Shown here one piece after another: positions 5,876 to 14,952 of a DNA stretch of 23,474 nt. Position numbers and translations under genes: made by a program. The DNA is from a virus, in the IMG/VR virus record IMGVR_UViG_3300020439_000082, positions 1 to 23,474 of that record; one strand, written 5' to 3'. The notes beneath the pieces were generated by a model, which saw nothing but the letters and a program-made list of their open reading frames with translations, searched no databases and was not told the origin of the DNA. Every line of letters starts with the position of its first letter. Position 1 is the first letter of the stretch.

Positions 5876-6115
5876 TTATTTTCTATACCTTGCAGTTTTC
5901 TTTGCAATACTTTTTGGTTGTTTAACAAACTGTTTACCTTTTTTACCACCTTTAGCCTTAGCTCTATTGGTAGCTGCTCTTTCAGCAGGTGTTAAAGCTT
6001 TCCATGCTGCATCAGGTAAATATCTTTTTAATCCCCTGCTTGGTTTTCCATCTGAAGTTCTCCATTTTTGTTTACCCCAGTTCTTCAAACTTTGTTGAGA
6101 TTTTTTCAATGCCAT
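5876..6115 (-). CDS. Small basic protein, LPDAAWKAL...KTARYRK type (79 aa)
   Basis: A 79-residue Lys/Arg-rich protein: SLKNWGKQKWRTSDGKPSRG, then RYLPDAAWKALTPAERAATN, a Lys/Gly stretch, and GKQFVKQPKSIAKKTARYRK. I recall close relatives in many marine phages as a domain of unknown function (possibly DUF5872; not checked). The ATG overlaps the preceding stop as TAATG. No membrane segment or cysteine is present. Charge suggests nucleic-acid contact, perhaps in the virion, but nothing proves this. It is the last of four basic genes in a row, directly before the lysis promoter. Confidence 0.85.
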   Translation of the reverse strand: MALKKSQQSLKNWGKQKWRTSDGKPSRGLKRYLPDAAWKALTPAERAATNRAKAKGGKKGKQFVKQPKSIAKKTARYRK

Positions 6116-6315
6116 TACTTGTAACCTCCACCTGCAGCTTTATATGCCTTAGCTAACATTTGAGCCTTACGAGCTGACCACTGTCCAGGTCTACCACCTT
6201 TACCACCAGCTTTAATTCGTTGAAATATTCGTTTTCTCATCCCAGGTTTAGTATAGTTACCTGCTTCATTAACTCTTGACTTACCTACTTTTTTTCTTTT
6301 TATTCTTTTAGCCAT
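6115..6315 (-). CDS. Small basic protein, GQWSARKAQ type (66 aa)
   Basis: A 66-residue basic protein beginning MAKRIKRKKVGKSR, with KPGMRKRIFQRIKAGGKGG and GQWSARKAQMLAKAYKAAGG before the end. The GQWSARKAQ and KAGGGYK pattern is one I recall from phage proteins of unknown function in marine samples. An ATG two codons earlier at 6321 is possible. The one at 6315 is chosen because it shares a base with the previous stop (TAATG), as its neighbours do. The C-terminal half should form a helix; the N-terminal half is a Lys/Arg tail that could bind DNA or RNA. Confidence 0.85.
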   Translation of the reverse strand: MAKRIKRKKVGKSRVNEAGNYTKPGMRKRIFQRIKAGGKGGRPGQWSARKAQMLAKAYKAAGGGYK

Positions 6316-6608
6316 TACCATTTTACCTTATTAGCCCAGTAAGCTGCACTCATCTTACCTTTGGCTATGTTTCTTCTATGTCTTGCTTTAAAACTTTTTC
6401 TTTTCATTTTAATTCTTCGAGACTCTCCCGCCTTTGGTTTACCAGCAGTCTTAGCTCCTTGTTGTCCGAACCTAATAGTCTTTACCTTACCACCCTCTTT
6501 AGCCACTACGATATGTGATTTTTTTGGGTGATTAGGAGTTCTCTTTGGTTTATTAAAACCAGATACACCAGCTCTTTTTAGCCTAGGGTCTTTCTTTCTT
6601 ACTGCCAT
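6315..6608 (-). CDS. Small basic protein, KARHRRNIAKGKMSAAYWANKVKW type (97 aa)
   Basis: A 97-residue basic protein. It contains AGVSGFNKPKRTPNHPKKSH, a short beta-like segment HIVVAKEGGKVKTIRFGQQG, then KAGESRRIKMKRKSFKARHR and a conserved-looking end MSAAYWANKVKW. I remember this ending in proteins of unknown function from many tailed phages, including marine ones. It starts at ATG within TAATG after the 34-residue gene and ends in TAATG with the next. Its wide spread suggests a shared virion or packaging role; the actual function is not known to me. Confidence 0.85.
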   Translation of the reverse strand: MAVRKKDPRLKRAGVSGFNKPKRTPNHPKKSHIVVAKEGGKVKTIRFGQQGAKTAGKPKAGESRRIKMKRKSFKARHRRNIAKGKMSAAYWANKVKW

Positions 6609-6712
6609 TACTTTCTCTTTTTCTTACTATTCATAATCTTTTTCTGTAAAAACTTTGGTAAAGTCTTTTGTTTTTTTGTTAAAGATTTTTTCTTCTTTGT
6701 ATGCTTAGGCAT
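6608..6712 (-). CDS. 34-aa Lys-rich mini-protein
   Basis: A 34-residue frame begins MPKHTKKKKSLTKKQK and ends IMNSKKKRK; about half the residues are Lys or Arg. The ribosome binding site AAGGAG stands eight bases before the ATG, the start overlaps the thioredoxin-like stop and the end overlaps the next start, both as TAATG. Those three signals make it a convincing gene despite its size. It is the first of four consecutive basic proteins. No family recognised. Confidence 0.75.
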   Translation of the reverse strand: MPKHTKKKKSLTKKQKTLPKFLQKKIMNSKKKRK

Positions 6713-7101
6713 TACTGTATCTCCTTCTTAATTTTATCAAATACTTCCTGCTCATCAAATCTCATACTAATACCAGGTTCATATCTCATTACTTCTTTAC
6801 CTTCTTTTAATATGATAATAGTAGGAACTACTTTAATATTCCATTCTTTTTGTATTACTGCACCAACAGCTTTATTGTTTAAATCTATTTCACCTACATA
6901 ACAAAGCTTAGATAGTTTTTCTACCTTAACTCTGTTTGCATGATTCCATGATGCGTTTACTTGCACAACTGCACACTTCTGTATGTTAAGTGCCTGTATA
7001 GATGCAAAGTTATCTAAATTAACCGACTGCCCAAAAGCAGAGGATGATAGCACAGCAAATCCAAAGAAGGATAAGCATAGTTTGTAAAATTGTTTCATCA
7101 T
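6712..7101 (-). CDS. Exported thioredoxin-fold protein lacking the CxxC site (129 aa)
   Basis: Residues 1-24 form a signal peptide (basic start, LCLSFFGFAVLSSSAFG, cleavage likely before Gln 25). The rest fits a thioredoxin fold: VVQVNASWNHANRVKVEKL, GEIDLNN, and VVPTIIILKEGKEVMRYEPG, where Pro 93 is the expected cis-proline. Where active thioredoxins have W-C-x-x-C this protein has W52-N-H-A-N56, so redox catalysis by that site is lost. Cys 43 and Cys 67 remain and could pair with each other. AGGAG lies eight bases upstream of the first of two adjacent ATGs. An exported protein in a virion operon may act in the periplasm during infection or release, or be a virion protein; I cannot decide. 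Confidence 0.75.
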   Translation of the reverse strand: MMKQFYKLCLSFFGFAVLSSSAFGQSVNLDNFASIQALNIQKCAVVQVNASWNHANRVKVEKLSKLCYVGEIDLNNKAVGAVIQKEWNIKVVPTIIILKEGKEVMRYEPGISMRFDEQEVFDKIKKEIQ

Positions 7102-7119: not shown

Positions 7120-7416
7120 TTAATCTTTATTCATATCCAGTAAAGTTTCTTGAATCATTCTTGTATCATCTTTAACTGAATCAACCTTTTCTTCAAGTTT
7201 ATCTACTTTTTCTTCAGTGTTTAATATTGAATCACGAATCATCTGGTCTTTCAAATCATATTCCATTCGTGATACTTCTGGCTCTGGTAATTCTTTTGCA
7301 AGTTCTATTTCTGCTTGTAAAGAATACCACATGCCAACAATCATTCCTACAGTAACAAGTATACTTACACCTGTTTCTAAGGATAGAGTGAATTTGGTGT
7401 CTTTACCTACTTCCAT
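7120..7416 (-). CDS. Membrane-anchored coiled-coil protein (98 aa)
   Basis: One membrane helix at about residues 15-33 (TGVSILVTVGMIVGMWYSL) is followed by an acidic helical region with heptad-like repeats (TEEKVDKLEEKVDSVKDDTR). AGGAG precedes the ATG, which lies two bases after the methyltransferase stop. The topology is that of an inner-membrane spanin (Rz-like): a single N-terminal anchor and a long periplasmic coiled coil. It sits about 1.6 kb before the holin, and no outer-membrane partner with a lipobox was found, so spanin is only one option. A virion or assembly membrane protein is another. Confidence 0.75.
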   Translation of the reverse strand: MEVGKDTKFTLSLETGVSILVTVGMIVGMWYSLQAEIELAKELPEPEVSRMEYDLKDQMIRDSILNTEEKVDKLEEKVDSVKDDTRMIQETLLDMNKD

Positions 7417-7417
7417 T

Positions 7418-8071
7418 TTATTCTCCTATATCATTATTGTCTACTATTAATTTTGGTGCATAGTATGTATTACCATCACCCTTTAAATACCAATCTATTC
7501 TAGCTTTATCTGGTATGTCCAAAGTAACTGGACTATACTCAATTCTTTCTTGCCTATCAAACTGTTCTATATGATGTACTTTTTTAATAGCTTTTATATC
7601 TCCATCATATTGGCTTTGTTCTTGTAAGAAGTTATTATACCAGGTAAGTATGGTACCCTCTTTACAATGTTGCATTATTCTAGTAGGAAAATATCTCTTG
7701 TTTAACATATCACCAAACCCATCATAAAATACACCATCATACTTTCTATCAGTAGGTATATCATCATACCAATCTCCTTTGACTGGTATTACATTAGGTT
7801 TATCTTTTGCCCACTCTACTAATGCATCGTATATATTGTCATTAACTTCAATAATAGTATGTGATTCTATGTCGTGTGCTTGTATTAAACCAGCACTAAT
7901 ACCCATACCAAATCCAAATTCTAGTATATGTCCACCATTAGCACATACAATATCAGCATGTAATTCCATTATAGGAGTTTCCCAGTCAGACATTACATCC
8001 CAACCAGTAGCTTCATCTATAATGCAATCTTCTTTAACTGTATAGTTTGCTGTTGCTGCATATCCGTTCAT
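7418..8071 (-). CDS. GAMT/RMT2-like SAM-dependent methyltransferase (217 aa)
   Basis: The sequence follows guanidinoacetate N-methyltransferase closely as I remember it: VMSDWETPIM (residues 26-35) against VMERWETPYM, ILEFGFGMGIS (49-59) as SAM motif I against VLEVGFGMAIA, HTIIEVNDNIYDALVEWA against HWIIECNDGVFQRLRDWA, and GVFYDGFGD against GILYDTYP. Glu 31 of WETP and Asp 117 match the two acidic residues that bind the guanidino group in GAMT, so a guanidino substrate (arginine side chain or small guanidine) is predicted. RMT2-type protein arginine methyltransferases share the same fold and motifs. The ATG overlaps the previous stop by four bases (ATGA) with GGAGGT upstream. It lies between fibre accessory genes and a membrane protein, so a virion protein may be the target. 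Confidence 0.85.
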   Translation of the reverse strand: MNGYAATANYTVKEDCIIDEATGWDVMSDWETPIMELHADIVCANGGHILEFGFGMGISAGLIQAHDIESHTIIEVNDNIYDALVEWAKDKPNVIPVKGDWYDDIPTDRKYDGVFYDGFGDMLNKRYFPTRIMQHCKEGTILTWYNNFLQEQSQYDGDIKAIKKVHHIEQFDRQERIEYSPVTLDIPDKARIDWYLKGDGNTYYAPKLIVDNNDIGE

Positions 8072-8379
8072 CGACCAGGACCTCCACCAGCAACATGTTC
8101 TCCGCCTATAAGCTCAGACATAGCGTATGGTGCTTGTTCTATACTAGCTACTTGAGATGCTGTTATATCTTGCTGAGTAGATTGAAATGCACTGTTAGTA
8201 CCACCAATCTTTTCAAAAGTATCTCCAGGTCCACCATCTGCTGCAAAGGTCATACCTTCTCCACCAGTAGACAATCCTTTTAAACTAATATTAGATGTTT
8301 GTTGTACAACAGTAGCTTCACCTACTGCTGAACCATTACTAAACAATCCTACATTAGTACTTCCTACCGTTACACCCAT
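8068..8379 (-). CDS. Gly-rich small protein near the fibre (103 aa)
   Basis: A 103-residue protein with repeated Gly, Ser and Thr: it starts MGVTVGSTNVGLFSNGSA and ends GGEHVAGGGPGR. Ala/Gly/Thr-rich composition suggests a structural or fibre-linked protein. The ATG overlaps the stop of the 80-residue gene as TAATG, and its own stop overlaps the methyltransferase start. There are no cysteines, signal peptide or membrane segments. I do not recognise it. A fibre assembly or tip protein is possible by position only. Confidence 0.75.
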   Translation of the reverse strand: MGVTVGSTNVGLFSNGSAVGEATVVQQTSNISLKGLSTGGEGMTFAADGGPGDTFEKIGGTNSAFQSTQQDITASQVASIEQAPYAMSELIGGEHVAGGGPGR

Positions 8380-8621
8380 TACTCAGCGTCTCTAATTGCT
8401 TTTAAATCAACTAATTCAGCATCTACTTCAACTACTTTTGCTTCAAGATTTGCTTTTCTTTCTTCTGCATCTTCAATAGCTTCGCCCACTTCTCTTGATT
8501 CCATATAATCTAACACTTCAACATCATTGCCAGATGCGTCTTTCATAGTTTTCATATATTTAATTTCAATCATTTTTACTTCTGACGATTCTACTGCTTT
8601 TTCTGAAATTACTTTAGCCAT
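8379..8621 (-). CDS. Acidic coiled-coil protein overlapping fibre end (80 aa)
   Basis: An 80-residue acidic protein. The N-terminal half (AKVISEKAVESSEVKMIEIK) looks like beta strands; the C-terminal half (AEERKANLEAKVVEVDAELV) is a predicted coiled coil. AAGGAG lies seven bases before the ATG, and the gene overlaps the last eight bases of the fibre gene. Small proteins coded right after a fibre often help fold or attach it, and this may be one, but there is no recognisable chaperone motif. Confidence 0.75.
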   Translation of the reverse strand: MAKVISEKAVESSEVKMIEIKYMKTMKDASGNDVEVLDYMESREVGEAIEDAEERKANLEAKVVEVDAELVDLKAIRDAE

Positions 8622-11600
8622 TTAACTTCTCCTTTAATTCGTTAATTTGTTCTTGTTGTTCTTTTATTGCTTCTACTAAATAAGGTATCATTTCCTCATA
8701 TCGTAAAATCTTATATTCTTTATCATCTTCTGCTCTTAGTGGTATTCTCTTTTCATCTACTAAGTGAGGTAAAATCTTTTCTACTTCCTGTGCTTTAAAT
8801 CCTGCACTTAATCTTTCTCCACCTTTTTTCCAATTAAATGTATGTCCTTCTAATTGTGTTACTACATCTAATCCATTTTCTATTTTTTCAAAGTTTTCTT
8901 TTAGTCTTATATCAGATGGTGTTGTAGAGAATGCAATTACATCTTTATCAAAGTGAACATCTCCATCGTGTCCAATTCTCATACTTTCAAAGAAATCTCC
9001 TGAACCATCAGTTCCCTGTGTGTAAAAAGATAATCCTATATAATCTGTATCTGTGCTTCCATCTGCTACAGAAGTTATCATAGCTCTTCTTCTACTTCCA
9101 CCAATCCAACAAATTGAACCATAATTAGTTCCACTTGCTCCCCCATTATGCCCCTCAAGAAGTATGCTATCTTGTCCTGACAATGTCATTGTAGCAGTTC
9201 CATCTCCATCTGAAGTAGTGCTTGTGTGAGCAGACAAATCTAACTTAGCGTTCGGAGAGCCAGTACCTATTCCAATTCTATCATTACCTGCATCGGTAAA
9301 TAATAAGTTAGCATCGCCATTACCCTCTACTCTAAAATCTATGTCATTACTACCCTCATTAATTACGATTGAATTATTTAAATCAATTTTAAGATGCTCT
9401 ACTCCATTGTGGTCATCAAATATTGTGCTTGTATTAGTCCTATTTCTAAAGAATAAATTACCAGTTTCATTTCTTAAATAAGTATTACTACCATCGTGTC
9501 TTATTGTAAAGTCAATACTACTACCAGCTCCAAGATAGTGATTATCTTCAACATAAGCATATCCGGAACTACTACTTTCATAAAATCTCATTGTATTTAC
9601 ACCACCAACAACCATATAAACACTATCAGCTGTGTTTTCGTGAATATAAGTATGAGTTCCTCCGTCAAAATAAATTTTTGAAGTTGCTGGTATTTTTAAA
9701 TCACCCTCAGATAGTTGTATTCCACCACCTTCTCTGTAAATTTGGAATATGTTATTATCGGATTGGTCTCTAAAATAAAGATTACCATTTGATAGTTTCA
9801 TATAATTATGTGAACCATCGTGTTCAATAGTAAAATCTGATGCAGCACCAAATCCTGCTTTAGCATTGTCTGCGTGTTGAGTGCTTTGAGCAAATATTGT
9901 TTTAGTAGCACTACCATCTAAATAAAAATAATCAGTAACACCACCACTACCATTATCAGATTGGAATTTTATATCTTTATCATCTGCATTGTTTTTAATA
10001 ATTATATCGCCAGTATTATTTTGCATATAAGCATTACTATTATCGTGTTGAAATCTTAAATCTAAATCCGAACCCAACATAAGTTGTGCAGAATCAACCA
10101 TTTTAATATCGTGATTAAATAATGCAGTTCCAGCATCACTTGCATCTATTTGTAATGCGTGTATATGACTACCACCATCATTTACAGATAAAAATATATC
10201 TTGGTCTTGTGCAAGATTTCTAAATTGTATATATCCAGTATAATTTCCAAATAATGTGTTAGAGCCATCGTGTCCAAGATAAATATCATTACCAGTTCCC
10301 ATTCGTAAATATTGTCCATCATTAGGTATTTTAATATCTCCCTGCGCACTTGCATCTATCCATAAAGCAGTTTTTGTAGAGCCACCATCATTGACTAAAA
10401 ATTTTAAATCTTGGTCTGATGTGTTTGCTCTTATGTAATTAGTAGTACCATCGTGATACATTTGTAAATCACTATCTGCTCCAAGAGTAAGTTTAACTCC
10501 ATCTGTTGGAACTCTAACCATATTGTTAGCACCATCTAATTTTAGAAAAGTTTGAACTCCACCACTACCATCGTCTGTTCTAAATATGATGCTCTTGTCA
10601 TCAATAGTGTTATCTATGTATAAATCTCCAGTTCCATATTGTTGTATAAAACTATGACTTCCATTGTGCTGGATTCTTAAATCGTCATTAGCCCCAATCA
10701 TTAATTTTTGACTATCGTTAGGCAATCTTACAGCTCCAACATCACTTGAATCGATTTGAATAGCAGTTTTCATCGTGCCACCATCATTAACCTTAATGTA
10801 TAAGTCTTGATTTGATGTATTGGAATTTATATAATTGTTTGAGCCATCGTGTAAGATTCTTAAATCATTACCAGCTCCTAAATAAAGATTTTGCCCATCA
10901 TTAGGAAGTTTAATTGAGCCATTATCACTTGCATCTATTTGTAATGCAGTAATTGTACTACCACCATCGTTTACATTAAAATGTAAATCTTGGTCTTGAG
11001 TTACTGTTCTTATATAGTTTACATTACCAGAGTGATAAAGTTGTAAATCATCTGCATTACCTATGCCAAGTCTTATATTATCAGGAAGTCTTACTTTATC
11101 TACAGATTCTTCTCTAAACTGCATTAATCTTGTGCCACCTACAAATACATCTAAAATATCATCAGATGATTCTTGTATATAAGTATGAGTTCCACCGTCA
11201 AAATAAAGTTTATTAGTAGCACTAATTTCAATATCACCATGCATATCTAAATCACCATCAGAATTGAAACTTGATAATGCTGAACTATTACTACCTAATT
11301 TTAATAAAGAATTTGGCTCATCTAATGTTATCCAGTTTCTAAATGTAGTTCCATCATAAGAATAAATAATTAAACTTTGGTTATCATCTCTATGTGATAT
11401 ACTATATGTTGTATGAGTTGAATCTTGTGAGGATTTTTTAAGTCTTATGCCACCTTCACTTCCGTCTGCTGATTGAATGTTTAAATAATCACTACCATTC
11501 CAAGTAAGAGTTGATTCTCCATTTAAAGCTGTTGAGCTACTAAATGTTGCTATTCTATTATTACTACCATTTGCTACTGCTGATACTGCACCACCACCAA

Positions 11601-14600
11601 TATCATCAACTGATAATTGAACTATAGCATCTGCACTTTGATTGTAAACTACAACCGTATCTTGACTGGTCAAAGGTTCTGAGTCTGTATTCAATACAGC
11701 CAACCCAGAAAAATCTACCTCTACATCGTTTGCATTTACTGCAATACCATCTCCTGCACCAACTGCTAAACTTCCTGAACTAGTTACTGTACCAGTTAAT
11801 CCATTTCCACCTGAGACGCTTGTTACTGTTCCAGCATTTGATGTAAAACTAGAATCATTATTAAAAGCAGATAGTTTAATTTCACTTGCTGCTTTTCTTG
11901 ATTCTGTAGTTCCGTCTTGTAAAATAAATTCTGTTGTTCCAGATATATCTCCTGTCATATCTGTTAGTTCACTAAAGTCTAATGCTAATGTTGCACTAAA
12001 TACACCACTACTTGCTGAGCCACCACCTGACAATCCAGTCCCTGCTGTTACGGATACAGAAGTAATATCTCCATTGTTGTTGCTAAAAGGTAAATCTTCT
12101 ACAAGTATTTTCTTAAGACCTACACCAGAATCGTGGAACATTATAGCATCATTTGCTGCGTCTAAACTACTAGCTAAACTTAATCCATTTATATCTACCT
12201 CTATGTCATCAGCATTTACTGTTATACCAGTTCCTGCTCCAACTGCTAAAGTTCTTGTAGCAGTAATATCTCCACCACCTGTTAATCCTGCACCTGAAGC
12301 TATATCTATAGAACTATGGTCTTTATGTTCATTAGCTACAAAGCCACTAAGATTGTCGTGTACAATCTCTGAATCGTTTGTAGATACTGCAGAAGAAGAT
12401 ACACTTATACCTGTACCTGCACCTACATTTACAGTAACTCCACCTGAGCTACCACTACCAGTCAAACCTGTACCTCCAGTTACAGATGTAATTGTACCTG
12501 CATTATTGGTAAAAGGTAAATCACTTACTGTACCTAGTCTAACAGCATCACTGTTAGAGTCGTCAAAAAATATAAAACCGTCTGCTCCTACAACTTCAGA
12601 TATAGCTGTTAATGCACTAGCAGCTATGTCTACTGCATTGGTAGTTACAGCTAAACTACTTGAACCTACTGCAAGTGTTGCTGTACCTGAACTTGTTATT
12701 GCAGAACCACCACCTGTTAATCCGTCACCACCAGTAACTGTAACAGATGTTACTGTACCAGCATTAGATGTAAAACCTGAATCATTATTGAAACCAGATA
12801 AATTAATATTACCTTTTGTAAGTTTTTTCTGAGCATTAGAACTATCTACTACTGCAAAGAAATCTCCGTCTCCGTCTGATGTAGATGTTGAAAGTTCAGA
12901 TAAATCTACATCTATAGTTGGCGTAGCTCCTTCTCCACTATTGTTTTGTAGGTCAATTAAATTACCTGCAGTCAATGTAGCTACATAATTACCAGTAGTA
13001 TGCGTTGTTAAGTCTACACTATTGTTAGCAATACTTACAGCAATACTTACATCTGCACTTCCGTCAAACGCAGTAGCAGTTGTACCAGTAACATCTCCTG
13101 TTAAGCTTATATCTCTTGAATTTGCTAATGTTGTTGCTGTACTAGCATTACCTTCTAAAGCTGCTATTAAAGTACCTGTAGCTACTGTTAAATTACCTGT
13201 AGAAGAAGCGTCTGCAGTTGTTGTACCTACTTTAAATTTATCTTCAGATTCGTCCCATATAATTGCTGCATTGTTGCCAGTGCTACCTCTTTCTATGATT
13301 AACCCTGAATCGTTAGCATTAGAACTTGCTCCACGATTTAATCCTATAATATTATCTGATACATCTAAATTGGTTTGATTGACTGTAGTTGTTGTACCAT
13401 TGACTGTTAAATCTCCAGTAACAGAAGCATTCCCAGTAACACTCAATGTTCCAATTATTGTTTCTGATGTTCCTGCATCTACTTTAAATACTACATTACC
13501 ACTACTATCTTTTGCCCTAAAATCTAAATCATTACCACCATTGTTGTGCATTGTATAGGCATCTAAAAAAACTAATTTACCTACACCATTTCTTACAATA
13601 TTAAAATTATGGTCTGTTGTAGTTCCGATAGTACCACTTGTGTCTTGTGACCTAATTTCAGTTTTAACAGTATTTGTGGTATCTGTTACAGTGAACTTTG
13701 GTGTATTAGCATCGCTAAAATCTATATCTCCAGTAAAAGTAGGACTTGCTAAAGTTTTGTTAGAAAGTGTTTGTGAGCCAGTGAGTGTAGCTACTGTTGA
13801 ATCTATAGAGAGTGTATCTCCAGTCAAATCAATACCAGTTCCACCTGCTAAATTTGTATCATCTCCTATATCAATAGTTCCAAGCGTGATAGCTTGTCCA
13901 CTTAATGAAAGATAATCGTGAGAACTTGTAACAAGTGTTACATTTGTGCTATTATCTGTACCAGCTGCGTCTACACCTATTGTAGTTCTTACTGCTGCAG
14001 CATCTGCATCATCTACAATACTTTTACCAAATGTTGATATAGTAGTATTAGCAGGTAAAGAAAATGTTTTTAAATCTGCATCTACTTCACTGTCCATAAG
14101 AGCACCAGCTGAAGTCACATTAGCAGTATCAGTTACATCCGCATTACTCTCTACTGAGTCAAGTTTTGTTTCTTGAGCATCAGTCATAAATCTTTTGTTA
14201 GATGCATCTGACATATTTGCTGTGCCAAATGTTGGGGAAGCTCCACTTATTACTGACTGGTCTAATGCTTTTACATCTGCAATACTTGTAAGTTCACTAT
14301 CCATTAATGCACCTGCACTAGTTACATTTGCTGTATCTGTGACATCTGCACTGGCTTCAATGCCATCTAATTTAGAGTGGTCAGCGTCTGTAAACACATT
14401 AGAGTCTGAAGCACTATCTACAAGCGTTCTTATTTCAGAAGCTGTTTGGTCTGCTGTGGCACTATCTTCAATAGCATTTAATTTATTTAAAAGGGTAGTT
14501 GTAAAGTTGTTGTCTGATTGTGTGGCTACTACAAAATCTATATTACCATCTGTATCGTCATAAGATACTGATATGCCTGTTTCAGTACCATCTAACATTC

Positions 14601-14952
14601 CACCAACAATATCTTCTACTTGCTCAGTAGTTAGAGTTGCTTCTATCTTTGCGTTAAGCTGTGTTTGTATATTGGAAGTAACACCATCTAAATAGTTTAT
14701 TTCTGCAGTAGTTGCAGTAACACCATCTAAGATATTTAACTCTGCTGCTGTAGAAGTAACAGCAGTTTCATTAATTTGTAAAGCTCCGTCATTTTTAATA
14801 TTAATAGAAGCACTACTGATTTGTAAAATACTAGCTGTACCTTCACCATCTTCTACATCTCTTAGAGTTGCATCTACCCCAGAGTTACTATTAGAAACCT
14901 GTAGTAAGTCTTTGTAAGACTCTGATATTTTTTTACCAGTTAGCGTAGCCAT
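8614..14952 (-). CDS. Giant tail fibre/spike with S74-type intramolecular chaperone (2112 aa)
   Basis: A 2112-residue fibre that probably binds the host surface. Residues 1-60 (MATLTGKKISESYKDLLQVS, then DVEDGEGTASILQISS) resemble virion-attachment ends of marine phage fibres. Residues 60-300 hold LDGVTAT-type and ADVTDTANVTSAGALMDSE repeats. 500-590 contain DNIIGLNRG and IIERGSTGNN. 720-1070 hold Gly-rich NAGTVTSVTVTGGDGLTGG repeats. About 1295-1830 hold eight copies of a unit with LGADSDLQMYHDGTTNYI. Residues about 2012-2112 match a peptidase S74 chaperone: TPSDIRLKENF, then GFKAQEVEKILP and a coiled-coil end. In that family self-cleavage takes place at a Ser-Asp pair, here Ser 2013-Asp 2014, after trimer folding. 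The upstream binding site is weak (GGTG). Confidence 0.9.
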   Translation of the reverse strand: MATLTGKKISESYKDLLQVSNSNSGVDATLRDVEDGEGTASILQISSASINIKNDGALQINETAVTSTAAELNILDGVTATTAEINYLDGVTSNIQTQLNAKIEATLTTEQVEDIVGGMLDGTETGISVSYDDTDGNIDFVVATQSDNNFTTTLLNKLNAIEDSATADQTASEIRTLVDSASDSNVFTDADHSKLDGIEASADVTDTANVTSAGALMDSELTSIADVKALDQSVISGASPTFGTANMSDASNKRFMTDAQETKLDSVESNADVTDTANVTSAGALMDSEVDADLKTFSLPANTTISTFGKSIVDDADAAAVRTTIGVDAAGTDNSTNVTLVTSSHDYLSLSGQAITLGTIDIGDDTNLAGGTGIDLTGDTLSIDSTVATLTGSQTLSNKTLASPTFTGDIDFSDANTPKFTVTDTTNTVKTEIRSQDTSGTIGTTTDHNFNIVRNGVGKLVFLDAYTMHNNGGNDLDFRAKDSSGNVVFKVDAGTSETIIGTLSVTGNASVTGDLTVNGTTTTVNQTNLDVSDNIIGLNRGASSNANDSGLIIERGSTGNNAAIIWDESEDKFKVGTTTADASSTGNLTVATGTLIAALEGNASTATTLANSRDISLTGDVTGTTATAFDGSADVSIAVSIANNSVDLTTHTTGNYVATLTAGNLIDLQNNSGEGATPTIDVDLSELSTSTSDGDGDFFAVVDSSNAQKKLTKGNINLSGFNNDSGFTSNAGTVTSVTVTGGDGLTGGGSAITSSGTATLAVGSSSLAVTTNAVDIAASALTAISEVVGADGFIFFDDSNSDAVRLGTVSDLPFTNNAGTITSVTGGTGLTGSGSSGGVTVNVGAGTGISVSSSAVSTNDSEIVHDNLSGFVANEHKDHSSIDIASGAGLTGGGDITATRTLAVGAGTGITVNADDIEVDINGLSLASSLDAANDAIMFHDSGVGLKKILVEDLPFSNNNGDITSVSVTAGTGLSGGGSASSGVFSATLALDFSELTDMTGDISGTTEFILQDGTTESRKAASEIKLSAFNNDSSFTSNAGTVTSVSGGNGLTGTVTSSGSLAVGAGDGIAVNANDVEVDFSGLAVLNTDSEPLTSQDTVVVYNQSADAIVQLSVDDIGGGAVSAVANGSNNRIATFSSSTALNGESTLTWNGSDYLNIQSADGSEGGIRLKKSSQDSTHTTYSISHRDDNQSLIIYSYDGTTFRNWITLDEPNSLLKLGSNSSALSSFNSDGDLDMHGDIEISATNKLYFDGGTHTYIQESSDDILDVFVGGTRLMQFREESVDKVRLPDNIRLGIGNADDLQLYHSGNVNYIRTVTQDQDLHFNVNDGGSTITALQIDASDNGSIKLPNDGQNLYLGAGNDLRILHDGSNNYINSNTSNQDLYIKVNDGGTMKTAIQIDSSDVGAVRLPNDSQKLMIGANDDLRIQHNGSHSFIQQYGTGDLYIDNTIDDKSIIFRTDDGSGGVQTFLKLDGANNMVRVPTDGVKLTLGADSDLQMYHDGTTNYIRANTSDQDLKFLVNDGGSTKTALWIDASAQGDIKIPNDGQYLRMGTGNDIYLGHDGSNTLFGNYTGYIQFRNLAQDQDIFLSVNDGGSHIHALQIDASDAGTALFNHDIKMVDSAQLMLGSDLDLRFQHDNSNAYMQNNTGDIIIKNNADDKDIKFQSDNGSGGVTDYFYLDGSATKTIFAQSTQHADNAKAGFGAASDFTIEHDGSHNYMKLSNGNLYFRDQSDNNIFQIYREGGGIQLSEGDLKIPATSKIYFDGGTHTYIHENTADSVYMVVGGVNTMRFYESSSSGYAYVEDNHYLGAGSSIDFTIRHDGSNTYLRNETGNLFFRNRTNTSTIFDDHNGVEHLKIDLNNSIVINEGSNDIDFRVEGNGDANLLFTDAGNDRIGIGTGSPNAKLDLSAHTSTTSDGDGTATMTLSGQDSILLEGHNGGASGTNYGSICWIGGSRRRAMITSVADGSTDTDYIGLSFYTQGTDGSGDFFESMRIGHDGDVHFDKDVIAFSTTPSDIRLKENFEKIENGLDVVTQLEGHTFNWKKGGERLSAGFKAQEVEKILPHLVDEKRIPLRAEDDKEYKILRYEEMIPYLVEAIKEQQEQINELKEKLNG
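9478..11070 (-). repeat. Eight HDG-type units in the fibre shaft
   Basis: Fibre residues about 1295-1825 repeat the motif (L)x(L/I)GxxxDLxxxHDGSxxYI eight times, starting near residues 1295, 1356, 1416, 1488, 1549, 1624, 1699 and 1806, so unit lengths vary from about 60 to 107. Between copies, VNDGGS and ALQIDAS recur, and KIYFDGGTHTYI flanks the array at about 1248 and 1759. Copies differ in every unit, which fits an old duplicated beta-shaft rather than recent expansion. Confidence 0.85.

Follow-up and report, generated by a model that had tools for sequence, protein, structure and literature searches.

A GAMT-type methyltransferase gene of a tailed phage adjoins a putative tail-tip gene whose glycine-rich arginine end may be the substrate

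We analysed a stretch of viral DNA of 23,474 nucleotides (the window), a 23.5 kb fragment of a marine tailed phage with portal, capsid and tail genes. We think it somewhat probable that a methyltransferase (MT) encoded in its late operon methylates the C-terminal arginine of a putative tip protein, the product of the gene immediately upstream. This substrate is inferred from homology to guanidinoacetate N-methyltransferase (GAMT), which makes creatine in animals, and a predicted fold of the same kind, conserved acidic residues, a fixed gene order, and the association of the arginine tail with the enzyme. The preliminary description of this DNA had drawn attention to the enzyme and missed the tip gene encoded just upstream, which ends in GGGPGR. 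The positions of the features are collected in Table 1.

Table 1. Features of the window around the methyltransferase gene
Feature	Position	Strand	Remarks
Methyltransferase (MT) gene	7418..8071	minus	Intact frame, 217 aa; GAMT-type guanidino-N-methyltransferase by homology and fold
Predicted guanidino-binding acids of MT			Glu31 and Asp117
SAM loop of MT			E-F-G-F-G-M-G
Small putative tail-tip (adhesin-like) protein	8068..8379	minus	103 aa, end ...EHVAGGGPGR; no Pfam match; proposed substrate
CGA-TGA, terminal Arg codon and stop	8068..8073	minus	MT ATG lies inside; 4-nt ATGA overlap
80-aa protein between long tail fibre and tip protein	8379..8621	minus	
Long tail fibre	8614..14952	minus	2112 aa; C-terminal Peptidase_S74 chaperone domain
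MEVGKD gene, directly after MT	7120..7416	minus	Directly after tip gene in several MT-less phages
Thioredoxin-like protein	6712-7101	minus	Apparent signal peptide; in late operon; weak Pfam match (0.013)
Three consecutive small, very basic proteins	5876-6608	minus	Without a Pfam match; C-terminus of one is GGGYK (GGGYR in L020)

The homology evidence makes it very probable that the MT is a GAMT-type guanidino-N-methyltransferase. Compared with solved structures by phmmer, it matched only GAMT (E = 2.6e-20, 1xcj), and a profile built from 37 viral MT sequences scored 1e-28 with GAMT against 4.5e-4 with the next family. The AlphaFold model of the MT (pLDDT 89.6, pTM 0.89) likewise placed GAMT at the top of a Foldseek search (1.6e-13 over 224 columns, TM 0.69), ahead of the next family at 2.7e-7. 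Both comparisons had been named in the preliminary description as checks on a guanidino-specific methyltransferase, and both support that claim by homology, with GAMT ranking first in sequence as well as in full-length fold. No usable family match was found in Pfam, NCBIfam or PHROGs, and protein arginine methyltransferases (PRMTs) of types I-III gave no match to the MT by sequence and were absent from the best 50 fold matches.

In the phmmer alignment to 1xcj, Glu31 and Asp117 of the MT correspond to Glu45 and Asp134 of rat GAMT, which we take to be the acids that hold the guanidino group. Both residues are unchanged in 37 of 37 viral MT sequences, in keeping with the earlier claim that the two acids are retained. 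The motifs VM-x-x-WETP-x-M, GFGM and YD were all found in the order originally described; conservation among the 37 sequences is narrower, however, as only the W and E of WETP and the D of YD are invariant. A generic methyltransferase with a WETP motif by chance was ruled out by the Foldseek ranking, and the best structural match is GAMT, with its acids invariant in the viral family, rather than a generic SAM methyltransferase. What the MT shares with GAMT (PDB 1xcj, 3orh), its best sequence and fold match, includes the W-E motif, the GFGM SAM loop and both acids. The two are about 25-29% identical in the fold alignment and diverge after about residue 145, and the MT differs from GAMT in being encoded in a phage tail operon.

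We assign the tip protein from the position of its gene after the tail fibre gene. Its AlphaFold model (pLDDT 52) is too poor to reveal whether the C-terminus is exposed. A search of phage records found no match to the tip protein and only distant matches (22-29% identity) to the window's capsid protein. On several MT-less contigs the MEVGKD gene follows the tip gene after 16-25 nt. Since the window has the same gene after its MT, the MT has the look of an optional insertion at a single site.

One scan returned 382 viral stretches that encode relatives of the MT, and 80 of these were kept. In the tree of the family the window belongs to group 1, which is made up of subgroups 1a (support 100/99) and 1b (support 100/96), with 96/77 for the node that unites them. 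Further viral sequences form groups 2 and 3, and long branches make the deep placements uncertain. A glycine-rich stretch followed by arginine ends the protein upstream of the MT at every group-1 locus with an intact junction (42/42; several of these are near copies, and the upstream proteins differ). In subgroup 1a the upstream stop overlaps the MT start as ATGA, and the last codon is CGA, AGA or, once, CGG (together with a GTG start); all three being used, the arginine is evidently kept while the bases change. Subgroup 1b has a TAA stop, as a rule a 6-nt gap, and different upstream proteins, and the end is still GGGR. One 1b member (L253) carries T4-like sheath and tube genes downstream, named here by sequence recognition rather than by family search, while the window has another capsid/portal type. 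The pairing of MT and tip gene is therefore found in T4-like myoviruses as well as in the type of phage that the window represents, and crosses phage types.

Homologous tips from phages that lack the MT served as natural controls. Within the tip family of 103-118 aa to which we refer as family a, the unique proteins encoded with an MT ended in arginine without exception (24/24), whereas those without an MT ended in glutamine (18), arginine (11) or glutamate (2); four 262-aa homologs with unrelated ends were left out of this count. The difference between arginine and glutamine with and without the MT gave a Fisher p of 7e-7 on unique sequences. The sequences are related, and after clustering the strength is modest, with p = 0.0016 at 90% identity and 0.013 at 80%. 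No second-site MT was found on 34 MT-less contigs, which may be incomplete. As 11 unique arginine-ended tails thus occur with no MT elsewhere on their contigs, the arginine tail must serve some function independent of the enzyme.

A second tip family, of 208 aa, gave a similar picture. Its MT-linked member ends in GGGGGGR, and this tail occurred in none of the 75 readable MT-less homologs among the 79 others listed (4 run off the contig). Members near 70% identical mostly end in INCRLSGL or VEAGGLFP, and many of the more remote homologs are longer and similar over no more than a part of the sequence. Searches for MT-less homologs of the subgroup-1b tip found none. For the group-3 fibre tips, narrower queries gave 8 and 7 loci, all on known MT-bearing contigs, and phage records held no MT-less homologs of them.

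Some of the tips in this material are worth recording for their own sake. In L111/L117 and L112/L116 there are two tip gene copies per contig, one ending in GGGPGR and the other in GGGPGQ; either a single phage carries both variants of the tip, or the assembly produced the duplication. MT-less tips such as those of L107, L110 and L119 end in GGGPGQ or GGGFGGGQ and so resemble GGQ, the motif acted on by release-factor glutamine methyltransferases; methylation of the glutamine end by the host is conceivable.

Because the MT gene is encoded right after a tip protein with a glycine-rich arginine end, methylation of the tip arginine is more likely than synthesis of creatine. Under this proposal the polyglycine stretch would give the terminal arginine a flexible arm with which to reach into the MT pocket, where its guanidino group would be held between Glu31 and Asp117. 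SAM-dependent methylation of the internal guanidino nitrogen would then yield delta-N-methylarginine; that the methylated atom is probably this internal (delta) nitrogen is argued by analogy with GAMT and with BlsL. Through the ATGA overlap, production of the enzyme would be tied to production of the tip protein. As to purpose, one may speculate that the modification tunes receptor binding or protects an exposed end. Among the substrates put forward in the preliminary description, a fibre-type protein is thus favoured, narrowed to the tip C-terminal arginine because of the association of arginine with the MT in the upstream gene, and creatine-type compounds are disfavoured. More tentatively, the glycine-rich C-terminal arginine tail and a dedicated GAMT-type, delta-N-methylating enzyme may together form a mobile two-part module in marine phages, a proposal that we hold at slightly less than even confidence.

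It is possible, though we consider it unlikely, that the MT is a protein arginine methyltransferase whose target is a different protein of phage or host, with the Gly-Arg tail serving as a docking site or being unrelated. Examples would be internal arginines of the fibre, the operon's small basic proteins or, as for RMT2, a ribosomal protein of the host. Fibre genes often precede the MTs of groups 2 and 3, three small basic proteins are encoded near the MT in the window, an internal G-R-S/T close to the C-terminus is invariant in the group-3 fibres, and several group-2 fibres have SGR-T/S. However, the association with a terminal arginine is specific to group 1, and relatives of the small basic proteins are found in MT-less phages, for which reason we set these proteins aside as substrates. 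In the group-3 fibres upstream of the MT (L256-L277) the G-R-S/T precedes a terminal Cys by about 20 residues and is a possible internal arginine target.

In groups 2 and 3 the MT mostly comes after fibre or other virion genes with no GGGR end upstream, which suggests that its substrates in these groups are different, and some members sit among DNA-metabolism or oxygenase genes. Given these differences in context, the proposal of the tip as substrate applies to group 1. In L262 and L264, which come from T4-like phages, relatives of the MT share small clusters with several genes that, judged by eye, appear 2OG-Fe oxygenase-like and sulfotransferase-like. Two kinds of cellular relatives were found, an NRPS-like protein that contains an MT domain and, in marine Alphaproteobacteria, fusions of TPR repeats with an MT, and this diversity indicates that the wider family has diverse substrates. 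The former (L063:4-1959, from an Acidobacteriota MAG) is possibly a guanidine-methylating NRPS module; the latter (L064-L069) join TPR repeats to a GAMT-like domain in MAGs of marine Rhodospirillaceae and other alphaproteobacteria.

That the MT is instead an auxiliary metabolic gene, a true GAMT that draws on host pools during infection to form creatine or some other methylated guanidino compound, appears very unlikely, even though GAMT is its closest solved relative and a 2024 ocean survey placed viral genes under K00542 and proposed that they serve to make creatine (PMC11360552). The MT lies in a late tail operon and is coupled to the tip gene, and creatine synthesis would leave the terminal arginine association unexplained. 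A scan of 36 MT-bearing viral records for PF02274, the ADI/amidinotransferase family, found no match, which weakens the metabolic explanation only mildly, as many records are fragments, the model (now named ADI) may miss amidinotransferases, and the host could supply the partner enzyme. Equally improbable is a glycine-rich arginine end that is a by-product of a ribosome-binding site (GGAGG) and the ATGA overlap, with the MT acting on an unrelated target: GGN codons in 1a could supply the Shine-Dalgarno sequence, and GGGGGR with ATGA also occurs in some unrelated pairs of genes on viral contigs, but 1b keeps GGGR off the usual Shine-Dalgarno register and despite its stop and gap, the glutamine codon CAA is equally compatible with ATGA yet never found with an MT, the arginine is kept in the member whose start codon has changed to GTG, and MT-less homologs carry glycine-rich tails with no adjoining gene start, so that we set aside the notion of a pure by-product.

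Gly-Arg-rich contexts are the classical substrates of PRMTs, and the target of RMT2 is a ribosomal protein. RMT2 itself is a fungal type IV protein arginine methyltransferase whose product is delta-N-monomethylarginine (PMC4860837); by analogy, the MT would resemble it in chemistry and in kind of substrate, that is, the internal guanidino nitrogen of a protein arginine. BlsL, of the blasticidin S pathway, is a bacterial GAMT-like enzyme reported to methylate the delta nitrogen of an arginine side chain (PMC5572114); likened here by description, it differs from the MT in being a non-phage enzyme of a small-molecule pathway. The 'GAMT' (K00542) of ocean viruses, which according to the survey is a marine viral gene more virus-enriched than any other covered there (PMC11360552), probably belongs to the same family as the MT, again likened by description, and is read in that source as an enzyme of creatine synthesis. 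Methylated arginines have been detected by mass spectrometry in phage proteins including a tail fibre; the phages concerned are not known to encode a methyltransferase (PMC13288928). Within the open-access literature we found no relevant paper on phage-encoded protein arginine methyltransferases. While the family has already been reported in ocean viruses, the link to the tail-tip C-terminus appears to be new within that literature.

The proposal gives a concrete and testable substrate, the peptide end GGGPGR, to a viral gene that the ocean survey explained by creatine synthesis (PMC11360552), and the related MT-less, glutamine-ended phages provide a ready natural control. If it is true, the MT would be a phage-encoded candidate for the arginine methylation of phage structural proteins (PMC13288928). 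It would be a protein arginine methyltransferase that a phage encodes for use on its own tip, and the gene that ocean surveys link to 'viral creatine' would be reinterpreted. Phages would then have an enzyme dedicated to the chemical modification of their own tail tips.
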